Of a stretch of DNA of 64,000 nucleotides, positions 18,677-25,342 are shown one piece after another. Both the position numbers and the translations under genes were made by a program. The DNA comes from Lachnospiraceae bacterium (GTDB lineage Bacteria; Bacillota; Clostridia; Lachnospirales; Lachnospiraceae). The DNA lies in contig SVFD01000001.1 in the NCBI GenBank assembly GCA_015057025.1, forward strand, positions 1 to 64,000, given 5' to 3'. The stretch's first letter is position 1. Every line of letters starts with the position of its first letter. The notes under the pieces are model-generated. The model was not told the DNA's origin and did not search any database. It saw only the letters and a program-made list of their open reading frames with translations.

Positions 18677-19020
18677 AAATGGCCGGAATCAAGCCTCCAA
18701 GTCCCCAAAAGATTTGGAGGTTTGATTCTGCCCATTTTTAGAGGAAAGTAATTTCCGAAACAAACAATCTATGGTACAATATCCTAGAAGTTATCAACGG
18801 ATAAGTGGACCATAGAGAAAGAGCAGAACAAATCACACGCAGGTCAGTCAGACCTGTATCTCAAAAGCAAATCTAATCTTTTTCTATGGCAGGTGCAAAG
18901 TGATGCATCATGCTTTATTTTTGCAGGTCCGATAGGGGACTGTTGCATCATTTTAGAACCCAAACTTGACGAATAAGTCATGGGATGTGCATCTTTATTG
19001 CGCACTCATGGCATGTGGAG
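18677..19020 (+). repeat. Dispersed non-coding repeat, copy A (~344 bp)
   Basis: Nearly identical to 24921-25263. The left end is an imperfect hairpin (18685-18700 with 18714-18729) that can terminate the SET operon. TGGTACAAT at 18772-18780 resembles an extended -10. An outer stem 18810-18821/18878-18889 (12 bp, one mismatch) encloses a hairpin CAGGTC/GACCTG (18840-18845/18851-18856). The right end holds a conserved GGTCCGATAGGGG block and a CATGGGATG...CATGGCATG fold-back. The inner hairpin sequence differs from copy B but pairing is kept. Probably a structured RNA or mobilisation site (oriT-like). Confidence 0.75.
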
Positions 19021-19164
19021 TGTGTAATAATGATGCAGTATTGTGGAAAAGAGAAGAAAAAGTAGGGTTTGACCACAAGATGTTGTGGTTTGAGGGCAAA
19101 AATTAGACCAAAAAATGGCTAGTTTTTGCCCGATTTTTTTGCCCGTTTTTAAAGTGACAACAGG

Positions 19165-20676: not shown

Positions 20677-21771
20677 ATGTTAGCACTTTATTTCGATGAA
20701 AGTGGTAATACAGGAACAAATTATCTTGATGTTAAGCAACCATATTTTGTATATGGTGGTTGGTTAATTGAGAAAGAGAAGGAAAATGAAATATGTGAAA
20801 GTGTAGAGCGTATATTTTGTGGTTCAAGAGCAAAAGAACTTAAATCGAAAAAAGGTCTCAAATATGAAAGAGTAAAAGAATTATTCAACATACTAATATT
20901 TAAATTTAATGCAGTTCCTGTTTTTGGAGTAGCGGATAAAAGGTATATGGTGGCTGCTAAAATAATAGAAACCTTTTTTGACCATTGGTATAATCCCAAT
21001 GTGAATGGATATTTAACATACAGAACAGGGTTAAAAAAGGCGTTGGCAGATAGCGTTTCAAAAGATGACAGTCTTCTAGTTGCATTTAGTAAAATAATAC
21101 ATAATGGAACAATAGAGTTAGAGGAAATGAGAAGTATAAAAGTAGCGCTTTCAAATCATTTCAAAAATGAAAACCTTTTGGATGTTCAGCGTACAATATC
21201 TGATTTATCGGATGAAAATCTACAAGAAATGATAAAAGAATTTGAAGATGTTTCTAAGAATGGCAGTGAAAAAAGATGGCTAACATTGGTCGAACCGATA
21301 TTGATAGATAGGATTTTAAATATCGATATATATGCAAGAATTATTAATAAACAAGTGAATTTATATGTTGATGAACTATGGGGATATCAAAATGTTTTTG
21401 AAGAATTGAGAGATATTCTTAATAAAGAAACGATAATTACAAATGTTAAATTTGTAAAACAGTGCAAGTCAGATGAGAGTTTGCTTATTCAGGCAGCAGA
21501 TTTATTATGTGGATTTGTTTTTAATACATTGATGGAAATTGAAGTGTTAATGAAAAATGAAACTGTTAATACAATATGGCAAGATTTTATTATTATTAAC
21601 GAAACGTTCAAAAAAAATAATATAAAGGTATGGGATTATTATGCACATAGCGATTTTGAATATGAAATTTTAGGTTTAGGAGGGTATGAAGGACCTAAGA
21701 GAAAAGTGGACTGTAATAAAATAATTAGAAGAGATTTTTCTAAAGCACTTAAAGGAGAAATAGATGCCTAA
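20677..21771 (+). CDS. DUF3800-family protein
   Basis: A 364-residue protein with the DUF3800 signature: YFDESGNTG at the N-terminus, LYVDELWG in the middle and SDESLLIQAADLLCGFV at about 265-280. The acidic residues are arranged as in RNase H-like nucleases, so a nuclease role is often proposed for the family but unproven here. Start follows GGAGGGAC. It is cotranscribed with the cyclase-like gene. The 3' end overlaps the relaxase fragment start (ATG 21764), which implies it was captured inside a mobile element. Confidence 0.8.
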   Translation: MLALYFDESGNTGTNYLDVKQPYFVYGGWLIEKEKENEICESVERIFCGSRAKELKSKKGLKYERVKELFNILIFKFNAVPVFGVADKRYMVAAKIIETFFDHWYNPNVNGYLTYRTGLKKALADSVSKDDSLLVAFSKIIHNGTIELEEMRSIKVALSNHFKNENLLDVQRTISDLSDENLQEMIKEFEDVSKNGSEKRWLTLVEPILIDRILNIDIYARIINKQVNLYVDELWGYQNVFEELRDILNKETIITNVKFVKQCKSDESLLIQAADLLCGFVFNTLMEIEVLMKNETVNTIWQDFIIINETFKKNNIKVWDYYAHSDFEYEILGLGGYEGPKRKVDCNKIIRRDFSKALKGEIDA

Positions 21772-21982
21772 GTTAATTTTACGTTGCAACTATCTCAAGA
21801 ATGCCCCTCCTTCACATCTTGCCAATTACATGAATTATATGAGCACCCGTGAAGGTGTGGGTAAGATAGATAACACCTGCGGTTTGCTTCCGGCTACGGT
21901 TAAGCAAAAGGAACTGATAGAAGATATCCTGTCAAAGATAGAAGATGCAGACCGCATGCATGCATCCGCAATTGATTTCTAG
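21764..21982 (+). pseudogene. MobP-type relaxase, N-terminal fragment
   Basis: 72 codons. The first ~64 (MPKLILRCNYLKNAPPSHL, then NYMNYMSTREGV and LPATVKQKELIEDIL) match the N-terminus of MobP3-like relaxases of Clostridia integrative mobilisable elements. The homology stops at DADRMH, where the sequence switches into a TatD-family fragment in another frame, so the catalytic core is mostly lost. Marks a decayed mobilisable element. Confidence 0.75.
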
Positions 21983-22520
21983 CGGCTATGATGATATGAG
22001 ACTGTTTAAAGCATTATTTGAAAGAAGTCACAATATTGGCGAAGTGGGTTTGGACTTTAGTAAAGAATATATTCAGACCAAAGAAACACAAATACATGCA
22101 TTTCGTGATATTGTCAAGCTGTGTGAGCAGTGTGGAGAAAAAGTGGTTTCTGTTCATTCTCTTAAGTCAGCCAATACAGTTATTGAAATTTTGAGAGAAT
22201 ACAAAACACAAAGAAGTAATAAATATATCTTTCATTGGTTTACAGGCACGATACCACAACTGGAAAAAGCAATAGAATTAGGATGCTATTTTTCGATTAA
22301 TTCAAGTATGTTAAAAACAAAATCAGGATTAGAGGTAATAAATGCGGTACCTGTTGACCGCATGTTGTTGGAAACAGATGCACCATTTACATTTAAAGTT
22401 CAGCACATTGAAGAAATAGAAAAAGAGCTAAAGAGACTGGTATTAAAGATATCAGAGATAGTAAAAACGGACATGACAGATGTATTTTACGAAAATTTCA
22501 GAGAAGTGTTTAGGTATTAA
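21945..22520 (+). pseudogene. TatD-family nuclease, N-truncated, QatD-like
   Basis: 191 codons; TatD homology begins at CMHPQLI (from about 21957). It shows GEVGLDFS (first Glu ligand), VVSVHSLKSANTVI (His), FHWFTG (His) and LLETDAPF (Asp). The N-terminal HxH metal-binding strand is missing, so it is inactive as it stands. Sequence style fits QatD of the QatABCD anti-phage system; qatA, qatB and qatC are not in the window. Fused by recombination to the relaxase fragment. Confidence 0.65.
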
Positions 22521-22631: not shown

Positions 22632-22660
22632 TTGAGAAAAAGAAGCAAACGCTGTATACT
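22632..22660 (+). promoter_or_regulatory. Promoter of the MazF-like gene
   Basis: TTGAGA (22632-22637), 17 bases, TATACT (22655-22660), 34 bases before the start codon. Confidence 0.65.
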
Positions 22661-22694: not shown

Positions 22695-23309
22695 ATGCGG
22701 TTTAGTGATATAAAAGTAGGATACATTTATAATGTGATTTTTGATCCGGTCCGAGATTGTGAATTTGATGGTAAGCATTTGGCAGTAGTATTAAAGAGAA
22801 ATACTGATAAAGCAACATTTATTGTTATGCCACTTACGAGTGCACCTAATGGAGTCGGTGTGAATAAAATAAAATTAAGAGCGATGAATAGTTTGCCATC
22901 ATCGTTAAAAACTAATGATACATACGCAGTATACAATCAGGTTAGAACAGTTAATGCTGATAGATTTATTGCTTTAAAAGAAGGCAGTACAGTAAAGGAA
23001 TGTCCGATGGAAAAGTATATTTTCCATAAACTATTATTTTTAGGTCTCCGAGAGATGGTATATAGTATCCCGCAAGATGAAAGGATTGAAATCTTAAAGT
23101 CTGCTTATGAAGCTGAGTTAATCTCAAAGGCAAAAGATATGGCTTATCAAATTGTAAAATTAAGGAAAGAGGAAATTCCCGATAAAAAGCAAATTGATGA
23201 ATTTTTAGTACAGATTAACGAAACAATAAAAGGTGTAACATATTCTTTGGATAAGCAGCTTGTTAAGGATGGCATTGATGCGATTTTTAATGAGGCAAAA
23301 AATTTGTAA
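22695..23309 (+). CDS. MazF/PemK-like toxin-domain protein
   Basis: A 204-residue protein. Residues 1-110 fit a MazF/PemK barrel (VGYIYNVIFDP, GKHLAVVLKRN, FIVMPLTSAPNG, TYAVYNQVRTVNADRF), the fold of mRNA-cleaving toxins. Residues 115-204 are a helical extension not found in minimal MazF. Own promoter, GGGAGA ribosome binding site. No protein antitoxin gene precedes it. Directly downstream is a promoter-driven structured repeat RNA, reminiscent of type III toxin-antitoxin loci (ToxN/CptN are also MazF-like), though in those the RNA normally lies upstream of the toxin. RNase activity and RNA neutralisation are hypotheses. Confidence 0.7.
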   Translation: MRFSDIKVGYIYNVIFDPVRDCEFDGKHLAVVLKRNTDKATFIVMPLTSAPNGVGVNKIKLRAMNSLPSSLKTNDTYAVYNQVRTVNADRFIALKEGSTVKECPMEKYIFHKLLFLGLREMVYSIPQDERIEILKSAYEAELISKAKDMAYQIVKLRKEEIPDKKQIDEFLVQINETIKGVTYSLDKQLVKDGIDAIFNEAKNL

Positions 23310-23315
23310 TTTTTC

Positions 23316-23344
23316 TTGTATCTTTGAAAGGGATATGTTATAAT
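23316..23344 (+). promoter_or_regulatory. Promoter of the repeat RNA
   Basis: TTGTAT (23316-23321), exactly 17 bases, perfect TATAAT (23339-23344). Starts 6 bases after the MazF-like stop codon, so the RNA is an independent transcription unit. Confidence 0.75.
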
Positions 23345-23350
23345 CTAATC

Positions 23351-23491
23351 AAGAAAAGAGCGAGGTGCTCTGCTTAAGAATTTAGGGTATAGACTCCCAA
23401 CTAAGAAGAATAGAGTTAACAGCTCTACAAAAATGATTTTTAGGGTATAGATTCCCAACCAAGAAGAAGCAGGTCGTAAGACCTGCTTTTT
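23351..23491 (+). ncRNA. Structured small RNA with two 30-nt units at 58-nt period
   Basis: Hairpin 1: 23357-23361/23367-23371. Unit 1: 23381-23410. Hairpin 2: 23411-23416/23422-23427. Unit 2: 23439-23468, two differences from unit 1. Final hairpin 23469-23475/23480-23486 followed by TTTTT is a textbook terminator. Each unit has GGG and CCC that can pair over an 8-base loop and ends in AAGAAGAA. No open frame of note. It could be a type III antitoxin-like RNA for the upstream toxin, or an unrelated regulatory RNA. About 140 nt. Confidence 0.7.
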
Positions 23492-23539
23492 GCATAGGAA
23501 CGTAAGATGGAAAACATATACTAAAAGGAGATGCGCAAT

Positions 23540-23782
23540 ATGCCGGAATGGATTTTTTTAATATTTGTTGCCATTCGTGAGGAAGAACAGAAGAGTTCGG
23601 ATGTCACCAAAGAAATCTAGAAATTAGTGAAAGAGAATCCGGCAATTAATGCTAATGAAATAGCAGAGATGCTGAGTGTGAAAGCTGAGGAAGTACGTTA
23701 CCGTATCAAATTGATGAAGAAATTAGGAGAGATTACAAGAAGAGGTGCTACAAAAGCTGGTGAATGGGAAGTAATTAAGTAA
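23540..23782 (+). pseudogene. Winged-helix C-terminal fragment with in-frame amber stop
   Basis: Reading from ATG 23540, 26 codons run to a TAG at 23618-23620, then the same frame continues 53 codons to TAA 23780-23782. The second part is a clear winged helix (LVKENPAINANEIAEMLSV, VRYRIKLMKKLGEITRRG, GEWEVI) of the type ending AlbA_2/Schlafen-like regulators. A single nonsense change plus loss of the N-terminal domains explains it. Confidence 0.65.
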
Positions 23783-23890
23783 AATTGATAAGTGAAACAA
23801 ATGGGATATACATGGTATAGCTGAAAATGTTCTGTTTTTATTTAGATTAATTGGCAATGTTTTGTCTTGGTATATAAGGAGAACAATTTT

Positions 23891-24883
23891 ATGAAACAAA
23901 AGATTTTTTTGCAAGCAGCTCTTGAGGAAATGGGAATTTATTCTTATGACGAGTATCAAGAAAAGATAAAAATATGGGAAGATTTTGAGAATAGAGTATT
24001 TAGAGGTGGACAGGAAAAGATAGATACTTTAAGGGACTTGGTTGTAAATTATTATGAGAGTTATCAGTACAATCAGTTAAGTGGACAGTATATTTCGGTT
24101 AATCCACGAGCGTGTCATAGTGATCTTATTGATAATTATATGTGTTTATTTCCTAAAAGAGCATTGATTGAAACGAGCGCATTATTGTCTTATATTGACA
24201 TGACACCACACAATGGTGAAAGTTATGATTTGCCACCCAATGATTTTATGAAGCAATATTTTCGATTTGAGAGCCTGATACAACATAATATTGCTTTTCT
24301 CTACCCTATAGATACGCATGAAGAAATTAGTAAATTAGACGGTACGATATTTGATTCGGCTTCAATAATACCTTTAAAAAATGTTGCAGATGTATCACAA
24401 AATGGAAACTTAACTAGAATACTTCAACAACCTGATATGTTCTATATGGCATTTCCATGGCTATATAACGCAAGGACAGAGGACTTTATTGAATTATGTG
24501 ATAAATATCCAGTTGAATTTGATTGTCTTGCAAATGCAGTAGAAAAAATTGCAAAAGCAAGTAATGGGCAATCAGATCTACAAACGGATGTATTAAAGGA
24601 GCTAAAAGATGCTTTAATAAATCTTCAAATATCTTTTGAGAAAAAAAAAGCAGTTCTTAAAGCAAAAGGCATTACGACAGTAGTTGGAATTGCTCTTACA
24701 TGTGTTCCATTTGCAGTTTCAAATTATTTTGATAATTTTGACCCTTCAATGCTACAGACAATTTTGGGAAGTGCATCCATTTTAGGAAGTAAGGATATAT
24801 TAGAAGACTTCTTTTCTTTAAAAAAGGAGGGGAATGTTAATCCGTATTGGGTAATTTGGAGATGGAAACAAACATTATTATAA
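23891..24883 (+). CDS. Hypothetical protein with one hydrophobic segment
   Basis: AAGGAGAA before ATG 23891 fixes the start (330 residues), not the TTG 24 bases upstream. Residues 1-225 look soluble and mixed helix, with no motif I recognise. A hydrophobic stretch lies at about residues 265-285 (GITTVVGIALTCVPFAV), preceded by a Lys-rich helix, so the protein may be tail-anchored or membrane-associated. AT-rich and isolated between a pseudogene and repeat copy B, it is probably a mobile cargo gene. Function unknown; a toxin or abortive-infection role would be pure speculation. Confidence 0.65.
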   Translation: MKQKIFLQAALEEMGIYSYDEYQEKIKIWEDFENRVFRGGQEKIDTLRDLVVNYYESYQYNQLSGQYISVNPRACHSDLIDNYMCLFPKRALIETSALLSYIDMTPHNGESYDLPPNDFMKQYFRFESLIQHNIAFLYPIDTHEEISKLDGTIFDSASIIPLKNVADVSQNGNLTRILQQPDMFYMAFPWLYNARTEDFIELCDKYPVEFDCLANAVEKIAKASNGQSDLQTDVLKELKDALINLQISFEKKKAVLKAKGITTVVGIALTCVPFAVSNYFDNFDPSMLQTILGSASILGSKDILEDFFSLKKEGNVNPYWVIWRWKQTLL

Positions 24884-24920
24884 ATTATATTTTACATAGA
24901 TATTAATGTATTAAATTACA

Positions 24921-25263
24921 AAATGGCCGGAATCAAGCCTCCAAGTCCCCCAAAGATTTGGAGGTTTTCTTCTGCCCATTTTTAAAGGAAAGGAATTTCC
25001 GAAATAAAAAATCTATGGTACAATATCAAGGATAGTATGAAGGGATTCAGTACCATAGAGAAAGAGCAGAAACAAATCACTCATAAGCCAGCCCGGCTTA
25101 TATCTCAAAAACAAATCGAATCTTTTTCTATGGCAGGTGCAAAGTGGTGCATCATGCTTAATTTTGCAGGTCCGATAGGGGACTGTTGCATCATTTTAGA
25201 CCCTAGACTTAACGAATAAGTCATGGGATGTGCATCTTTATTGCGCACTCATGGCATGTGGAG
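24921..25263 (+). repeat. Dispersed non-coding repeat, copy B (~343 bp)
   Basis: Second copy of the element at 18677-19020. The outer stem 25053-25064/25122-25133 is identical in sequence to copy A. The inner hairpin here is ATAAGCC/GGCTTAT (25083-25089/25095-25101) instead of CAGGTC/GACCTG, with loop AGCCC, i.e. a compensatory replacement. A hairpin GACTTA/TAAGTC (25206-25222) precedes the conserved CATGGGATG fold-back. It fills most of the 459-base gap before the next gene. Single-base indels relative to copy A make coding unlikely. Confidence 0.75.
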
Positions 25264-25342
25264 ACCGTAGTTTTGCTTGTGAAGGAACGATAACCCGAAA
25301 AAGCAATATTGAGAATAATTTTAACATTGGATTTTACCATAC

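Follow-up and report, generated by a model that had tools for sequence, protein, structure and literature searches.

A putative two-gene mobile module in a Lachnospiraceae genome: a MazF-fold toxin gene followed by an autonomous RNA gene of a phage-shared family

The first 64,000 nucleotides (nt) of contig SVFD01000001.1 of a Lachnospiraceae bacterium (GenBank assembly GCA_015057025.1), referred to here in their entirety as the window, contain a locus that, as read from its sequence, is a two-gene mobile module: downstream of a gene for a putative ribonuclease (RNase) toxin of the MazF fold lies an autonomous gene for an RNA whose family also occurs in phages. It is near certain that a discrete RNA gene exists, bounded by a promoter and a terminator of its own, and the RNA belongs to a new family that is not yet catalogued in Rfam. 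Its role is assigned more tentatively: the RNA may travel with RNase toxins and act on them in trans as an antidote or decoy, which is favored over an antitoxin dedicated to the PemK-like protein beside it.

Architecture of the RNA gene

Each of the two 58-nt units of the RNA gene comprises hairpin A, an A/T-rich linker, hairpin B (GGGTATAGANTCCC) and a tail (AACNAAGAAGAA); since the hairpins follow one another in the order A1-B1-A2-B2, the repeat is this composite unit, present twice (Table 1). A preliminary description of the locus had correctly recognized the promoter, the terminator and the two near-identical 30-nt copies, which are 93% identical and spaced 58 nt apart; it had counted three hairpins, where there are four plus the terminator. 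It had also placed the RNA 6 bases past the toxin gene, which holds for the promoter and not for the RNA body, which begins ~40 nt past the toxin stop codon, the 5' end at ~23351 being derived from the position of the promoter.

The RNA folds more stably than 200 of 200 shuffled sequences (z=-3.45), although the terminator supplies much of this signal and the single units, folded by themselves, score z=-0.2 and -1.4. Searches with Rfam 15 returned no match in the window at the gathering score and, between 23290 and 23540, nothing credible up to an E-value (E) of 10.

Table 1. Features of the toxin-RNA locus in window coordinates; labels beginning with L denote related sequences described in the text, and R1 and R2 the search models
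Feature	Coordinates	Strand	Evidence
Promoter-like site of toxin gene, TTGAGA-N17-TATACT	22632..22660	+	consensus scan, 10/12 matches; kept in L023 and L024 (alignment)
PemK/MazF-like putative toxin gene	22695..23309	+	204 amino acids (aa); Pfam PemK_toxin PF02452, E=4e-7 over residues 8-92
Promoter of RNA gene, TTGTAT-N17-TATAAT, TG before -10	23316..23344	+	sequence; starts 6 bases past toxin stop codon
Small RNA gene, two 58-nt units then terminator	23351..23491 (start approximate)	+	folding z=-3.45; kept in L022, L023, L024; no Rfam match
Hairpin A of unit 1 (A-GAGC-GAGGT-GCTC-T)	23357..23371	+	fold; pair changes A-U/U-A, C-G/U-A/U-G among family members
Conserved 30-nt unit 1: hairpin B1 GGGTATAGACTCCC at 23385-23398, tail AACTAAGAAGAA	23381..23410	+	direct repeat; model R1 47 bits (training member)
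Hairpin A of unit 2 (TAGAG-TTAACAG-CTCTA)	23411..23427	+	fold; recurs in L003, L055, L060, L063, L064
Conserved 30-nt unit 2: hairpin B2 GGGTATAGATTCCC at 23443-23456	23439..23468	+	direct repeat 93%; R1 55 bits, R2 86 bits (training member)
Intrinsic terminator AAGCAGGTC-GTAA-GACCTGCTTTTT, stem plus T-run	23464..23491	+	inverted repeat and fold

Selection and movement of the module

An exact pattern of the unit led to three further genomes, namely Clostridium porci (L023), a Butyrivibrio metagenome-assembled genome (L024) and Lachnospiraceae UBA7086 (L022). The toxin-RNA pair is intact in the window, L023 and L024, and the toxins of the latter two are 92% and 90% identical to the window copy, respectively. 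In the three pairwise comparisons of these genomes, the RNA differs at 2/145, 2/87 and 1/87 positions, while the third codon positions of the toxin gene differ at 21, 36 and 23 of 204 (Fisher p=7e-4, 1e-4 and 2e-3). This corresponds to a divergence of 1-2% in the RNA versus 10-18% at the third codon positions, or ~5-10 times slower change; constraint on the RNA thus exceeds that on near-neutral sites in the neighboring gene, and the RNA is under strong selection. The 61-nt spacer, which holds the promoter, shows no difference from the window in L023 and one in L024.

Two 58-nt units are found in the window, L022 and L023 and one in L024, whose single unit looks like the product of a precise deletion between repeats. 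In L022, nearly the entire toxin frame has been lost, and the promoter, both units and the terminator are kept, with 3/145 differences in the RNA. The deletion in the toxin frame (L022:4635-4703) is flanked by the short similar stretches GCGGTTT/GCGATTT.

Apart from a separate stretch of 97 bp at rumA, L024 and the window match only over the toxin-RNA block, and the L024 module directly follows a rumA-like methyltransferase gene. The upstream TatD neighborhood is common to L023 and the window, and similarity stops soon past the terminator on the downstream side in all relatives. From these boundaries, toxin and RNA appear to have traveled as one block to the new neighborhood in L024.

The separate match links window 19011-19107 to L024:592-688, the 3' end of the rumA-like gene and its downstream flank (95% over 97 bp). 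The presence of rumA-like genes beside the module in both L022 (5048-6496) and L024 suggests an integration hot spot.

Relatives of the RNA in bacteria and phages

Two models were used to find relatives: R1, with 45 positions, was run on 397 genomes of the bacterial family, and R2, a two-hairpin model with 60 positions, on 351 genomes of the class. Together with one blastn match, they gave three more credible cellular copies, L003, L055 and L069. In G082 (L003), an amylase-type gene and a MarR gene flank one unit, which has a promoter-like sequence of its own and a terminator; this unit was included in the training of both models. In G131 (L055), one unit lies ~125 nt 3' of a CptN toxin gene on the same strand (NCBIfam CptIN, E=1e-45), with a skipping-rope RNA (RF02924) between the two and an RNA-like stretch with a terminator upstream of cptN, the whole set being located inside a prophage-like tail region. 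With R1, L055 is a weak match (E=0.003 per genome), accepted on the agreement of hairpin A, the length of the linker, hairpin B, the tail and the terminator; it was then put into the training of R2, and its R2 score is therefore not independent. In G978 (L069), one unit with a terminator lies ~90 nt 3' of an AAA_21-RloB operon, again on the same strand (PF13304, 2e-16; PF13707, 1.1e-41). Thus, in three of the four independent cellular contexts, which are only four and were viewed before the class 'RNase defence gene' was defined, the RNA is found directly 3', on the same strand, of an RNase toxin or RNase-like defense gene. Rejected candidates include L071 (chance, inside an elongation-factor coding gene), L070 (chance, core missing), L056 (judged chance), and the pattern matches L036, L037, L038, L042 and L045, which were judged coding or chance.

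Patterns of hairpin B also find the RNA core in phage contigs of IMG/VR, in transfer RNA (tRNA) regions, lysis modules and late operons. The RNA follows a small gene upstream of terminase- or tail-type genes in L031, L032, L039, L044 and L048; it lies 22 nt past a LysM endolysin-type gene, with a terminator, in L060/L061, and between a tyrosine recombinase and an endolysin in L063 and L064. In L025, L026, L027-L030 and L062, it occupies non-coding regions with tRNAs and/or skipping-rope RNA, the latter being within ~1 kb of the new RNA in L025 and L026. Exact copies of the unit in other genomes and in phages exceed what chance would give; blastn of the RNA against plasmid and phage records gave no credible match. 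Since homologs are present in phages and in three other bacterial loci, the RNA is not specific to the PemK-like toxin.

L060, L063 and L064 were retrieved by hairpin B alone, and hairpin A is present in them at the expected place. A search with hairpin A only returned six viral contigs, four of which (three distinct loci) have hairpin B at most 25 nt away and two of which do not, and so both motifs belong together. Pairing in hairpin A is kept through changes such as A-U to U-A (19 distinct aligned members; covariation score equaled by 0 of 500 shuffles), which is supportive only, because the alignment was fitted to the structure. Hairpin B is almost invariant, hence uninformative on pairing, and the invariance of the core is partly a product of the search patterns.

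The putative toxin

The gene upstream of the RNA encodes a PemK/MazF-like protein, in agreement with the preliminary description, whose Pfam domain is followed by a C-terminal helical extension of ~95 residues. The ratio of nonsynonymous to synonymous substitution rates is 0.15-0.20 (window versus L023 and L024). NCBIfam and PADLOC searches of the protein matched no family, and its structure prediction is poor, with a predicted local distance difference test score of 49.7 from three sequences. The promoter-like site of the toxin gene is a consensus match only, of a kind that shuffled sequences give equally often. A protein antitoxin had been reported as missing, and indeed no conserved small open reading frame (ORF) that could encode one stands beside the toxin in the window, L023 or L024; membership in type II MazEF/PemIK, in which a small antitoxin ORF is adjacent and usually upstream, was rejected on this ground. 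Relatives of the toxin were found neither in plasmid and phage records nor in viral contigs, and the viral contigs likewise yielded none of CptN.

Possible functions of the RNA

As an antidote or decoy, the RNA would act in trans by binding and restraining RNase toxins, in this locus the PemK-like protein. The strong promoter would supply RNA so that the toxin stays harmless to the cell, and the phage copies would blunt host RNase defenses. The pairing of toxin and RNA in three genomes with no conserved protein antitoxin is consistent with this role, as are the location of the RNA 3' of RNase or RNase-like genes in three of the four cellular contexts and its retention in L022 after toxin loss, which is the direction expected of an antidote. 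RCd22 of C. difficile offers an experimentally tested precedent: an RNA of two motifs and a terminator that neutralizes a toxin in trans (PMC12373285). An RNA-protein mode of action is favored over a type I mode because there is no antisense pairing with the toxin mRNA.

Several observations weigh against this role. At the G082 locus, where the RNA is an orphan copy, no toxin was recognized up to ~9 kb away from it, in a stretch of 19 kb; the CptN partner in L055 probably already has an antitoxin RNA, namely the stretch upstream of it; and the new RNA is absent from five further loci of the CptN type and from three more with RloB. PemK and the CptN of L055 are without detectable similarity, yet the same RNA core is located beside both, and an identical core beside three unrelated proteins is odd for a protein-specific antitoxin. 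For these reasons, a dedicated PemK antitoxin is disfavored. Furthermore, the catalytic Arg of MazF appears, from the motif, to be swapped for Lys-His in the protein, which makes it a putative toxin, and the small number of cellular contexts must be borne in mind.

Almost as likely as the antidote or decoy is a small RNA of phages or mobile elements with a conserved host or phage target unrelated to PemK, in which case toxin and RNA would be neighbors only as joint cargo of accessory islands. The core GGGTATNNAATCCCAACNAAG is near-invariant in unrelated contexts, and such a near-constant single sequence suggests one conserved partner. Most members are located in phage contigs with ordinary neighbors (endolysin, recombinase, baseplate-type gene), and both the orphan copy in G082 and the RNA kept in L022 despite toxin loss can be read in the same way. 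However, such a target would not account for the location of the RNA 3' of RNase or RNase-like genes at most of the independent cellular loci, nor for the joint presence of toxin and RNA in three genomes and their movement as a single block.

It is distinctly unlikely that the toxin, as a free-standing or type II-like MazF, has its antitoxin elsewhere and that the RNA is an RNase-resistant or regulatory 3' element devoid of antidote function. Type II MazF/PemK proteins are the most common members of the fold, the toxin gene has a promoter-like site of its own, and skipping-rope RNA likewise lies 3' of several unrelated RNase genes, which could reflect a general 3' role. However, the strong promoter of the RNA, its conserved 5' end at hairpin A (orphan L003 included), the missing protein antitoxin ORF and the phage copies that are not attached to RNase genes all argue otherwise. 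A type I-like arrangement, in which translation of the toxin mRNA would be blocked by base pairing with the RNA, is highly improbable despite adjoining genes with separate promoters, given that the RNA is on the same strand as the toxin and not antisense, its duplexes with the start region (204/300 shuffles at least as good) and with the whole mRNA (172/200) are no better than those of shuffles, and its core is conserved at loci with unrelated mRNAs.

Skipping-rope RNA as a parallel case

Because skipping-rope RNA adjoined the new RNA, its neighbors were surveyed in 40 genomes of the bacterial family, giving 12 distinct loci. A small PBECR2/3 RNase gene lies 30-60 nt upstream in six of the 12; in one, two tandem skipping-rope RNAs follow a phage minor-capsid protein whose C-terminus is a PBECR domain; the remainder follow Csm6 (1/12) or an SH3-domain protein (1/12), or have no clear partner (3/12). 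The RNA is situated 19-93 nt downstream, on the same strand, of RNase genes in L075, L076, L079, L080/L087, L082, L083, L085, L086 and L055/L058, and is thus a candidate RNA partner or antidote of PBECR, Csm6 and CptN RNases. Counting L055 (CptN), both RNAs appear to obey the same rule of a location 3' of an RNase gene; no paper stating this rule for skipping-rope RNA was found in the literature searched, most subscription papers being outside the search.

It is conceivable, if doubtful, that the two RNA families are general antidotes or decoys against RNase toxins, which bacteria would keep 3' of RNase genes (PemK, CptN, RloB, PBECR, Csm6) and phages would carry among tRNA and lysis genes as counter-defense. 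Only a few families of toxin-binding RNA antitoxins are known, and in these the RNA lies upstream. If true, an RNA that phages share and that is placed 3' of various unrelated RNase genes would widen the class; it would also account simply for some unexplained phage RNAs near tRNA genes, as carried antidotes to host RNase defenses.

In the Clostridioides phage pCD1602_4, a CptN-like gene is directly preceded by another RNA, Fusobacteriales-1 (RF02920; L088:1040-1158); because of this location, the family, which Rfam describes as 'cis-regulatory', may be a CptI-type antitoxin.

Neighborhood of the module

A sequence of ~345 bp flanks the region at 18677-19020 and 24920-25265, each copy being 84-87% identical to a single copy in L023 (2661-3010), and possibly marks the border of an element. 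The TatD-family gene at 21764-22520 is split into two overlapping frames and is therefore probably a pseudogene; the L023 copy is shortened. Downstream of the RNA, a 338-aa protein (23867-24883) has no Pfam family and a weak PADLOC match (E2, 8e-4), and is not conserved with the module.

Comparison with known systems

The window contains a DUF3800 gene (20677-21771), as do loci of the DUF3800-associated RNA motifs, and the RNA had been suggested to belong to it. This attribution is abandoned: the gene ends ~0.9 kb upstream of the toxin gene, the RNA does not adjoin it and has no Rfam match, and no DUF3800 gene stands beside the module in L022, L023 or L024.

Skipping-rope RNA is comparable as an RNA of phages and cellular Clostridia that lies directly 3' of RNase genes (PBECR2/3, Csm6, CptN) and adjoins the new RNA in L055, but it differs from the window RNA in sequence and structure.

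RCd22, the RNA antitoxin of AbiF in C. difficile, neutralizes its toxin in trans by binding; it consists of two hairpin motifs and a terminator, has its own promoter and is phage-borne in Clostridia (PMC12373285). The window RNA family shares with AbiF-RCd22 (abiF RNA, RF03085) the repeated units plus terminator, the own promoter and the phage carriage, whereas RCd22 lies upstream of a HEPN toxin and is unlike the window RNA in sequence and structure. Identity with abiF RNA was rejected, as RF03085 is not among the matches up to E=10 in 23290-23540, while the same library detects it in phiC2.

The type III toxin-antitoxin systems (ToxIN, CptIN, TenpIN) likewise pair a MazF-fold RNase gene with a terminator-ended RNA and have no protein antitoxin; their RNA consists of tandem repeats, whereas the new RNA has two units in the window, L022 and L023 and one in L024. 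In type III systems, the RNA neutralizes the toxin by binding it and is itself processed by the toxin. One member of the new RNA family (L055) adjoins a real CptN. The window protein has the MazF/Kid fold by sequence (PemK_toxin), and its endoribonuclease activity is predicted. In contrast, type III RNAs lie directly upstream in one operon with the toxin, from which a terminator separates them, whereas the window RNA lies downstream with its own promoter, and from 22650 to the toxin gene no tandem repeat is present. The window family has one or two 58-nt units, each containing two separate hairpins, is common to phages and other RNase genes, and has no Rfam entry; moreover, the toxin falls outside ToxN/CptN/TenpN, with no NCBIfam match and no similarity to the CptN of L055. 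The preliminary description had proposed a type III variant in reversed order. Of this, a selected RNA paired with a MazF-like gene, the lack of a protein antitoxin and the family member 3' of CptN stand; a toxin-specific RNA does not, in view of the copies beside AAA-RloB, in G082 and in phages, the probable antitoxin RNA that CptN has of its own, and the RNA-less CptN and RloB loci. Because its RNA is not upstream in the operon and its toxin is outside the known families, the locus is better described as a candidate RNA-toxin module whose RNA family is new than as a type III system; by analogy, its RNA would resemble a type III antitoxin in logic, outside that class by gene order.
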